Origin: Gemmatimonadaceae bacterium
GTDB lineage: Bacteria; Gemmatimonadota; Gemmatimonadetes; Gemmatimonadales; Gemmatimonadaceae
Assembly (NCBI GenBank): GCA_036496605.1
Contig: DASXKV010000050.1
Location: 186,001 to 250,000 of the forward strand
Direction: 5' to 3'
DNA: 64,000 bases
The notes below the pieces were generated by a model. That model had not been told where the DNA came from, searched no databases, and saw only the letters and a program-made list of their open reading frames with translations. A program made the position numbers and the translations under genes. Below are positions 28,125 to 31,380 of the stretch, piece by piece. Each line of letters begins with the position of its first letter. Within the stretch, counting starts at the first letter, position 1.

Positions 28125-30579
28125 ATGCCGACGTCGCTCCGACACGCGTTGAGATCTTTGAAGCGGACGCCGGTGTTCGCGATCGCGGCGATCCTCACGC
28201 TCGTCCTCGGCATCGGTTCGGTCGCGGCGACGTTCGCCATCGTATACAGCGTTCTGCTCGCGCCTCTCCCCTACGGACATCCGGATCGCCTGGTCAGCGT
28301 CGATCTCGATCCGCGGAGGGCCGAGTTGCGACGCATTCAACAGCCGCCGGCCGTCTACTTCACGTACAAGCGCTTCGCGCGGCGCATCGAGGACATCGGC
28401 TTCTATCGAACCGGGAACGCCAACATCTGGACCGGCGGCGGCGACGATGCACCCGAGCGCGTCACCGCGACCTGGGTCACCGCGTCCATGATTCCACTCC
28501 TCCAGGTGAGGCCGATTCTCGGACGCTCATTCACAACTGACGAGGAGCGGCTCAACGGGCCTAACGCGGCCATCCTCAGCGAGTCCGTGTGGCGAACGCG
28601 CTTGCACGCCGACCCCGACGTCATCGGCAAGACACTGATGGCCAACAGCGTCGCCCGTGTGATCGTCGGCGTCATGCCGCAGCAGTTTTCTTTTCCCACA
28701 TCCGATACTCGAGTCTGGCTTCCAACGAGGCTCGATCCGAACAGCACCACGGTCGGCGATTTCAGCTACTTCGGCGTGGCGCGCCTAACGACCGGCGCGA
28801 CTGCCGGCCAAGCGCAGCGTGAGCTCACTGCGCTCTTGCCGAAAGTCGCCGAGCTGTTCCCGCGTCTCGAGTCGGGCACGGCGACGACGGCCTGGCTCGA
28901 TCAGGCGGGACCATTGCCCGTCGTGATCCCGTTGCGCGACGAGGTCACGAATGGAATCGCGCACACCCTGTGGATGCTGGCCGCGGCGGCGGGACTCGTC
29001 TTGCTCGTTGCGTGGGCGAATGTCACCAATCTGATGTTGATTCGCGCCGACGGGCGACAATTCGAGCTCGCGATACGCGAGGCGCTCGGCGCAAGCCGCC
29101 TGCGCATCCTGACGCACTTCCTCGGTGAATCGATCGTACTCACCACGACGGCGGGGGCCGTCGCGCTCCTCGCGGCGTGGGGAGCGGTTCGCGCGCTCGT
29201 GGCCTTCGGATCGGCCGACGTTCCACGTCTCACGGAGTTGGGAGTCGGCCTAACGAGTGTGGGATTCGTCGCACTCGTCTCGATCGTTGGAGCCGTCTTA
29301 TATGCTACCGTGCCGACGCTTCATGTTTGCCGGGCGAACCTGACGATCAATCTTCGTGACGGCGGACGGAGCGATACGGCGGGAAAGTCACGTCAGCGCC
29401 TTCGCGCGACAATCGCCGCGCTACAGATCGCCGTGGCGCTCGTGGTGGTCGCGGGATCGGCGCTGCTGCTGCGAACGTTTCACCGGTTGTATCAGGAGCG
29501 CCCGGGCTTCGACGTCACGAACGTGATGACGATCTGGACGCAACTGCCATTCGCGCGCTACGGCGATTCGGCGTCCGTCACCTTCTACGACCGGTTGACG
29601 GAGTCCGTCCGCAATCTTCCGGCGGTTCGCGCCGCCGGCCTCACGACGCGCCTTCCTCTTGGCGCCGGTGAAATGCGTGAGCAGTCGTATCGTCTCGATG
29701 GCGACGGCCGACTCGTTTCTCTGCACGTCGACGTAGTAGACGACGGATACTTCACAGCGATGAGAATTCCGATACCGCGGGTCGCGGTTTTGAGCGACTT
29801 GGCGTTCAGCGCGACGGAGACGTCGTCGTCAGCCAGCACACCGCTGCGACCATCTGGAACGATCCCACCAGCCGCGTCGATGTGGGAAGACGGTTGTCGC
29901 TCGCGCCTCTGGGTCCGACATATACCGTCGTCGGCGTGGTCGGTGACGTGCGCGACCAGGATCTGGGCACGGCGCCCGCCGCCATGCTGTATACGCCGCA
30001 ATCCGTGCCCATCGATCCGAGAGTCGAGCCCGGCGCTCGCCACGTCATGGCGCTCGTCGTGAAGACCTCCGCGTCGCCGGCGGCGACGGTGGCGGCCGTT
30101 AGGCGCATCGTCCGCGATCTCGACCCAACGGTCCCGATCTTCAATGTCGAGAGCATGAGTGACGTCGTCCGCCATCGGCCGCCCGTCTCTCGCTGACGCT
30201 CGCGCTCATGACCGCCGCCGCTGCGATCACGCTGGTGCTCGGCACCATTGGCTTGTACGGCGTCATGGCGTACATGGTCGCGCTGAGGACGCGCGAGTTC
30301 GGCATTCGCGTCGCGCTGGGCGCCGACCGTCGGCAACTCGCGCGCACGGTAGCGATGCGCGGTCTTCGATTGATCGCTGGCGGCGTACTCGCGGGTTTGA
30401 TTCTCTACGCCATCGCTGCGCCCTTCCTGCGCGCGTTTCTCTACGGCGTCACGCCGAGCGATCCGCTAACGCTCATCGGGGCGATTCTCGCGCTCGTCGG
30501 CACGGCGTCGCTTGCGAGCTGGCTGCCTGCGAGGAGAGCCGCGCAGGTCGACCCAGCGGACGCGCTTCGCGCGGAGTAG
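28125..30579 (+). pseudogene. frameshifted ADOP-type orphan permease
   Basis: The permease reads intact to about residue 550 (N-terminal helix VFAIAAILTLVLGIGSVAATFAIVYSV, first FtsX module VLLVAWANVTNLMLIRADGRQFELAIREALGAS). Near 29775-29795 the frame shifts: sense continues one frame over as FERLGVQRDGDVVVVSQ..., VGRRLSLAPLG, TYTVVGVVGDVRDQ, to 30196. A second shift near 30160-30172 leads to the last FtsX module (LGTIGLYGVMAYMVALRTREFGIRVALGAD), ending 30579. Two frameshifts separate three pieces that together cover a full-length protein. Recent decay or two assembly errors would both explain this. Confidence 0.85.
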
Positions 30580-30647
30580 TGGAAGCGCCGCTTGATCCGG
30601 CGATAGGCTGGCTCCGCGAGGCATCGTGCGCCCGCCCAATCGCGGTC

Positions 30648-31109
30648 GTCGTGTCGAGTGAAGCACCGGTCGTGTCGGGTGAAGCTCGGGTCGTGTCGAG
30701 TGAAGCCCCCGTCGTGTCGGGGGAAGCCGCGTTCGTGTCGTCTGAAGCCACGTTCGTGTCGTCTGAAGCCACGTTCGTGTCGTCCGGAGCCACGTTCGTG
30801 TTGGGGGAAGCCCCGTTCGTATGGCGAAATGCGGCCTTCGCCTGCCAAGTAATCAGCGTGACTGTCAGGTTTGCCTCGTTCGTGTGGCACATTGCCGCGT
30901 TGCACTCGCCTGGAGCACGCTTCGCCTTCAATTTTGCGCGCTTCGCCTCGGGAAGTGCTGCCTTCGCCGTCGGGTTTGTCGCGTGCGCCTCACGATTTGG
31001 CAGGTGATACTGCCCATCTGGCAACGGAGCGCGAGCTTTTGCCGCGTTCGCCTTCCAGGTTGGAACGTTCGCCTTCCAAGTTGGAACTTTCGCCTGTTTG
31101 CCGGAGGCG
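30648..31109. repeat. 21-bp tandem repeat array, 22 units
   Basis: Twenty-two consecutive 21-bp units without any indel; unit starts at 30648, 30669, 30690, 30711, 30732 ... 31047, 31068, 31089. Ends are well conserved (TTCGTGTCG-type units at 30732-30794; TTCGCCTTCC-type at 31047 and 31068), the middle more diverged. The unit length of seven codons keeps long frames open on both strands: a minus-strand frame 31123-30473 repeats heptapeptides such as VASDDTN and VPTWKAN; a plus-strand frame repeats FVSSEAT. No recognised protein is encoded. The flanking stretch 30580-31380 shows no other gene. Confidence 0.9.
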
Positions 31110-31380
31110 CGGCGCAGGCGCACGGCCGCGGCGCGGTCGAGCGGCTCCTCGATGAGATCCTACCAAAGCGAGCGATCGACCCCGGTGAACCAGGTGCCGC
31201 AACGAGAGAGCGCGTTCTTCTCCTTGAAGGGTCGCGGAGTGGTAGAAGGCGTTTCGTCCCTGTTCGGCTGCCTTCTCAATTGCAGTCCGATGGCGGTCAT
31301 CGCAAGGTTGGGATCATATCCGCCGTTCAATCTGATTGTCCAATTGCGGTTGGATGGTCGCGGGCCTTGATCAGTCGACA

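Follow-up and report, generated by a model that had tools for sequence, protein, structure and literature searches.

The tandem array at positions 30648..31109 of the window, which is the whole stretch of 64,000 nucleotides that was analysed, is very probably an orphan, decayed copy of an element composed of an ECF-type sigma gene, an array of 21-bp units, and a second gene, here called gene B. Direct observations include the copies of this element in the host genome, the trio of sigma gene, array, and gene B, an exact period at many loci, units that are specific to each locus, and a near array-wide switch between A and C at one unit position. A mechanism in which the arrays would provide phased protein sites is put forward tentatively from these sequence patterns, and the orphan-copy and protein-array statements taken as a whole stand at about even chances.

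In the window, Tandem Repeats Finder detected a period of 21 at 30648-30820 (8.2 copies) and at 31045-31095, with 0% indels, and a profile parse showed both stretches to be a single run of 23 positions at approximately 30619-31101, in which every step is exactly 21. The strict 21-bp phase over 22 units that the preliminary description had reported was thus borne out by both methods. The array, of 22-23 units, begins 69 bp past the stop of the permease ORF 30208-30579 and is placed on the minus strand according to the order from sigma gene to array in the paralogous copies. Unit and profile parses divide it, all on the minus strand, into sigma-proximal units of the GGCGAACG TTCCAA type (31039..31101), a landmark, AAGCTCGCGCTCCGTTGCCAG ATGGGCAGTATCACCTGCCAA, near the end of the sigma-tail reading frame (30997..31038), an inner landmark of the CTGACAGTCACGCTGATTA CTTGGCAGGCGAAG type that is kept across copies and is the site of most +1 shifts among paralogues (30829..30870), and a distal part of CACGAACGTGGCTTCAGACGA-type units (30648..30815), the outermost of which have C, not A, at unit position 13. 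Three poor units with scores at or below zero in the profile parse (~31018-31038, ~30997-31017, and ~30850-30870) correspond to landmark segments conserved across the paralogous copies. The earlier claim that divergence is highest in the middle is only partly right because these poor units are landmarks common to the copies, so that part of the apparent divergence is conserved non-unit sequence rather than free divergence. Adjoining the array at 31102..31190 (minus strand) is a 5′-truncated remnant of the 3′ end of an ECF-like sigma gene (VDRSLW..LIEE..) with an in-frame TAG, recognized by its homology to an intact paralogue in L037; it contains neither sigma region 2 nor region 4, and the homology of the window copy to other copies stops at ~31190. 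On the left, the array is immediately preceded by a frameshifted MacB/FtsX-like permease gene (28125-30579) whose sequence is distributed among ORFs of differing frame (28125-30062, 29882-30196, and 30208-30579).

Besides the window itself, 18 places in the host genome show a match to the array and the ~90 bp to its right, with E values down to 4e-144, which is far beyond chance, giving a total of 19 copies of the element in the draft assembly. Complete copies, read along the window's minus strand, consist of an ECF-type sigma gene, the array, and gene B (~236 aa), and this trio was found in L078, L034, and L037. Every copy shows a gene end followed by the array, to which some copies add a tail and the second gene; the window copy retains just the ~90-bp 3′ end of the sigma gene and the array, both genes being otherwise gone. 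The genes neighbouring the copies vary (a GGDEF-type gene lies beside L002, for example), many copies are truncated at differing points on the 5′ side, and homology among copies ends directly past gene B. Retroposition, which would combine 5′ truncation with a constant 3′ end, was rejected because the 3′ ends differ among the copies, falling at the array end, the tail, or gene B. The true copy number probably exceeds the assembled number and some copies are probably recent, since 11 of the 70 contigs (C13, C14, C15, C23, C29, C36, C43, C44, C46, C48, and C61) have a terminus within or close to parts of the element and pairs of copies are up to 95-98% identical. The element thereby explains assembly breaks in the host genome. 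Of the 374 steps counted over the 18 paralogous arrays, 360 measure exactly 21, and the remainder comprises twelve steps of 22 and single steps of 20 and 16; these counts were obtained from the unit parse, plain pairwise alignment of arrays being unreliable as the repeats slip. The window array differs from that of L002 by gaps of 63 and 21, that is, arrays alter by whole units. In the C23 copy (L009 1371-2066), a block of units together with a landmark, GTTGGCAGTC..., is triplicated to form a higher-order repeat. Just past gene B of the C38 copy lies a group II intron (L078 8015-9608; Rfam RF02001, RF00029) with a broken reverse-transcriptase ORF.

The linked gene shows the sigma-70 regions 2 and 4 of ECF sigma factors (PF08281/PF04542; TIGR02985), with region 4 above cut-off in the copies of the host genome and in three other genomes, and region 2 above cut-off in L145 and slightly below it in L146. 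Among the host copies, Sigma70_r4_2 scores above cut-off in the proteins of the intact L037 and L034 ORFs, and the shorter L003 ORF matches TIGR02985 at E 9.5e-9, which is below that model's cut-off. A first scan of genome contigs with the sigma alignment gave no match, and PADLOC returned a single weak match for the sigma protein (E 0.0066). The usual partner of an ECF gene is an anti-sigma gene, whereas here the constant partner is the 21-bp array together with gene B. A further difference from usual ECF genes is that the sigma ORF of the host genome extends into the array as a charged tail: in intact copies, the counterparts of units 31039..31101 encode the heptads (RSNSEGD)n ahead of the sigma stop, and only about the first three units are read in this way, as a low-complexity tail.

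ECF genes also accompany gene B in other genomes. An ECF profile matched ORFs in twelve regions upstream of gene B and in two or three downstream, and Pfam confirmed these ORFs in three loci; the downstream cases may belong to another arrangement. With 21-53 ECF genes per genome, or about one per 120 kb, approximately 3% of 4-kb regions would be expected to contain one by chance, and the probability of 12 or more of 39 is ~1e-9, both values being approximate as the rate is rough and the flank lengths examined differ between loci. In most of the other genomes, the sigma gene and gene B point away from each other on either side of the array, whereas in the host genome and L117 both genes are on one strand; many gene B loci showed no ECF gene nearby.

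Gene B, exemplified by L078:7178-7885 (236 aa), has no Pfam family match and no recognizable DNA-binding domain, and searches of Pfam, NCBIfam, PHROGs, PADLOC (with no anti-phage defence match), and PDB sequences returned no function for it. Its predicted structure (pLDDT 77.7, pTM 0.60) is all helical, with two helices of more than 50 residues and a disordered tail, and has no significant Foldseek match in PDB or BFVD (best E 0.13). Homologues are present in 24 of 148 genomes of the family and also in a second family of the order; IMG/VR, PLSDB, and INPHARED yielded no relatives. Three of the 26 gene B members reach E ≤ 0.01 against the NCBIfam model NF052641 ('PQLLE family protein'), and two homologues, L127 (E 1.8e-5) and L133 (E 0.0043), align co-linearly to the middle of this model. 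The best score of 24.5 bits is far below the cut-off of 80 and most members are without a match, but the co-linear alignment suggests that the PQLLE family is probably a distant relative.

The 21-bp period recurs upstream of gene B in other genomes. For 27 gene B genes, the mean best local self-match of the upstream region was 62.6 at lag 21 and 57.7 at lag 42, compared to ~6.5 at every other lag between 12 and 60, and downstream a clear lag-21 signal appeared only in L137. Twelve gene B loci of the second family, a set independent of those in which the pattern was found, gave 40.1 and 34.1 at the same two lags and ~6.5 elsewhere. The corresponding control values for 29 loci around other ECF genes were 9.6 at lag 21 versus 8.3, and random regions of two other genomes showed no excess at 21. 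When the weak or negative loci were put to a more sensitive test, 15 of 22 proved to have a degenerate 21-periodicity on the upstream side, compared to 2 of 21 on the downstream side, so that ~32 of 39 gene B loci show the periodicity overall. The array typically ends ~80-250 bp ahead of gene B. Units of different loci resemble each other no better than chance, except within one genus, and a common unit motif across loci was accordingly rejected. The suggestion in the preliminary description that length is under selection gains support, as far as spacing is concerned, since many arrays from two bacterial families have a period of 21 although their units are unrelated. Upstream of the C4 copy of gene B, a very degenerate 21-bp array with a recurring GTTCCGC (L109 1816-2215) is scarcely detected by repeat finders.

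Unrelated units also occur within the host genome. A further gene B at C32:101.6k, which shares 25% identity with the first, is preceded by a 21-bp array whose unit is unrelated and whose unit family has solo copies of 43-52 units at C32:163.6k, C41, and C55; C41 (52 units) and C55 (50 units) have no step besides 21 despite well-diverged units. Among 462 kb of the host genome including the window, and setting aside short 7-bp microsatellite-like runs, the strong arrays have periods of 21 (and 42) bp. One of these, in L206, falls within the coding sequence of a CheR-like gene and probably encodes a coiled coil. Contig C38 ends with a further 21-bp array, which has a different unit (TCTGGAGTTGAGGTCGCAGCC; L078 9687-9828), and two more solo 21-bp arrays with other units are found at L198 13105-13686 and L201 1565-1852, beside which no gene B or ECF gene was recognized. 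Intergenic 7-bp tandem repeats (such as GGTGGTT and CTCTACC) are common in the host genome, for instance at L107 747-845, L200 9165-9268, and L204 5617-5697.

A heptapeptide-repeat protein encoded on one strand of the array, to which the preliminary description had given a place, would be compatible with a unit of seven codons and with the first units forming the tail of the sigma ORF, and one frame of some arrays has fewer stops than column-shuffled versions, so that there may be a weak coding contribution somewhere. The repeat-protein reading nevertheless fails because of ±1 shifts, namely the +1 shifts of the paralogues past the sigma stop and the steps of 20 and 22 that also occur outside the window family, and because of stops in all six frames of L092, L125, L139, and C41, whereas such a protein would call for one continuous frame and for indels in multiples of three. 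Moreover, conserved positions of the unit show no three-base rhythm (mean autocorrelation of -0.13 at lag 3). In the window itself, openness on both strands holds only in part, as 30648-31109 contains 1, 2, and 5 stops in the plus frames and 1, 0, and 3 in the minus frames. Frame-breaking indels in relatives, which the preliminary description had named as evidence that would refute it, are present and count against the peptide, which we regard as highly improbable, and not against a spaced binding array. Under a function at the RNA level, the array would form part of a long gene B leader or of a transcript coming from the sigma side, and its 21-nt units would act as repeated RNA sites, a sponge for an RNA-binding protein that might be the gene B product. 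The position upstream of gene B is in line with this idea, as is the greater folding stability of L177, L122, and L126 relative to shuffles. However, folding is inconsistent across arrays on both strands, by which a general RNA hairpin array was rejected, and a sponge needs no exact 21-nt period; a search at Rfam gathering scores found nothing in the array and only the L078 group II intron that follows gene B. The RNA function consequently appears improbable, if less so than the peptide. Palindromic units were also rejected (mean palindrome z 0.22, t 0.73).

More information on how the arrays might be read comes from unit position 13. This base is A in 48 of 56 good units of the window-type arrays (window, L002, L013, and L015) and C in 249 of 259 good units of the remaining arrays of the window family. 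Array type and base share 0.42 bits of mutual information at this position and at most 0.09 at all others; as the types were defined from position 13, this value expresses within-array consistency and is not a test of independent grouping. When units of window-type arrays (L001, L002) are set against units of the L003 group that are identified as orthologous by their own unit-specific differences, position 13 differs in 100% of comparisons, with a mean difference of 24% over all 21 positions. The retention of differences between neighbouring units despite a nearly array-wide switch points to a sequence-specific reader and disfavours conversion, because homogenization should have wiped out the unit-specific differences; we infer selection by a common reader as the simplest account. 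Since 21 bp corresponds to two helical turns of B-DNA, the array could be a DNA platform that presents repeated sites on one helix face for cooperative binding by a factor that the element encodes or controls, the candidates being the gene B protein and sigma region 4. The phase would be maintained because the sites must remain two turns apart, the unit sequence would shift jointly with its reader, and unit number would shift by whole-unit recombination, with gene-less copies such as that of the window persisting as solo arrays that are probably no longer functional. Such a platform would account for an exact period combined with a free number of units, for sequences that are specific to each locus, and for array-wide switching. 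Against it stand the lack of a recognizable DNA-binding domain or fold match in gene B, units that are not palindromic on average and share no motif between loci, the loss of both genes from the window copy, the outermost units of window-type arrays, which keep C at position 13 and leave the switch incomplete, the differing orientation of the sigma gene between genomes, and the many gene B loci without an ECF gene in sight. The exactness of the phase could also be partly inherited through whole-unit duplication. This is the basis of a neutral or selfish satellite, in which the array spreads and is renewed through slippage and recombination, the period comes from whole-unit copying, and the linkage to gene B reflects only shared ancestry. 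Gene-less solo arrays are indeed common in the host genome and arrays do change by whole units, but the change at position 13 with retained unit-specific differences is unlike homogenization, the phase is strict over ~1 kb of diverged units, and gene B loci have such arrays whereas random regions of other genomes do not. Thus, we consider a satellite rather unlikely, although less so than the RNA function. If region 4 of the linked ECF sigma factor were instead to bind at each unit, the array could titrate sigma as a decoy or drive gene B as a multi-site promoter. ECF genes adjoin the array at many loci, and GAAC, a common ECF -35 core, is present in window-type units; it is absent from most arrays, no -10-like partner was recognized at a fixed spacing, and units of different loci have no motif in common, which makes the promoter or decoy quite improbable, falling between the RNA function and the peptide.

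Among known systems, iteron and centromere arrays (ParR/parC, TubR/tubC, and plasmid iterons) are similar in layout, with direct repeats in tandem, each spanning roughly one or two helical turns, next to a single gene. In contrast, the present element is chromosomal and multicopy, has arrays of up to 1 kb with a unit that differs at each locus, and contains only the sigma ORF, array, and gene B, with no Rep gene or other replication initiator and no partition NTPase of the ParM, TubZ, or ParA type found in it. REP/RAYT elements are likewise dispersed intergenic repeats with a linked gene family, but the units here are non-palindromic on average, there is no Y1 transposase, and no transposase ORF was recognized in the full element of L078. 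Unlike CRISPR, the units stand head to tail without spacers and no cas gene was recognized among the L078 ORFs. No description of such an element was found in open-access text and the family searches were empty, on which basis the element, scattered in soil Gemmatimonadota with constant 21-bp spacing and changing unit sequence, is apparently undescribed.

It is very unusual for a fixed 21-bp period to be kept upstream of a conserved gene family while the repeat sequence is completely replaced, and the system offers a clean test of what sets the period of a tandem repeat, that is, DNA helical phase, reading frame, or inheritance. The one-base, array-wide switch is a natural experiment in the co-evolution of a binding protein with dozens of sites, and the system gives a lead to the function of the unnamed protein family of gene B, which lies next to ECF sigma factors. 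It is possible, though still short of an even chance, that these loci represent a new class of bacterial genetic system in which a locus-specific reader and its 21-bp array co-evolve through array-wide switches of unit specificity, and which, comprising an ECF sigma factor and a member of a new helical protein family, would spread in Gemmatimonadota and leave solo arrays behind.
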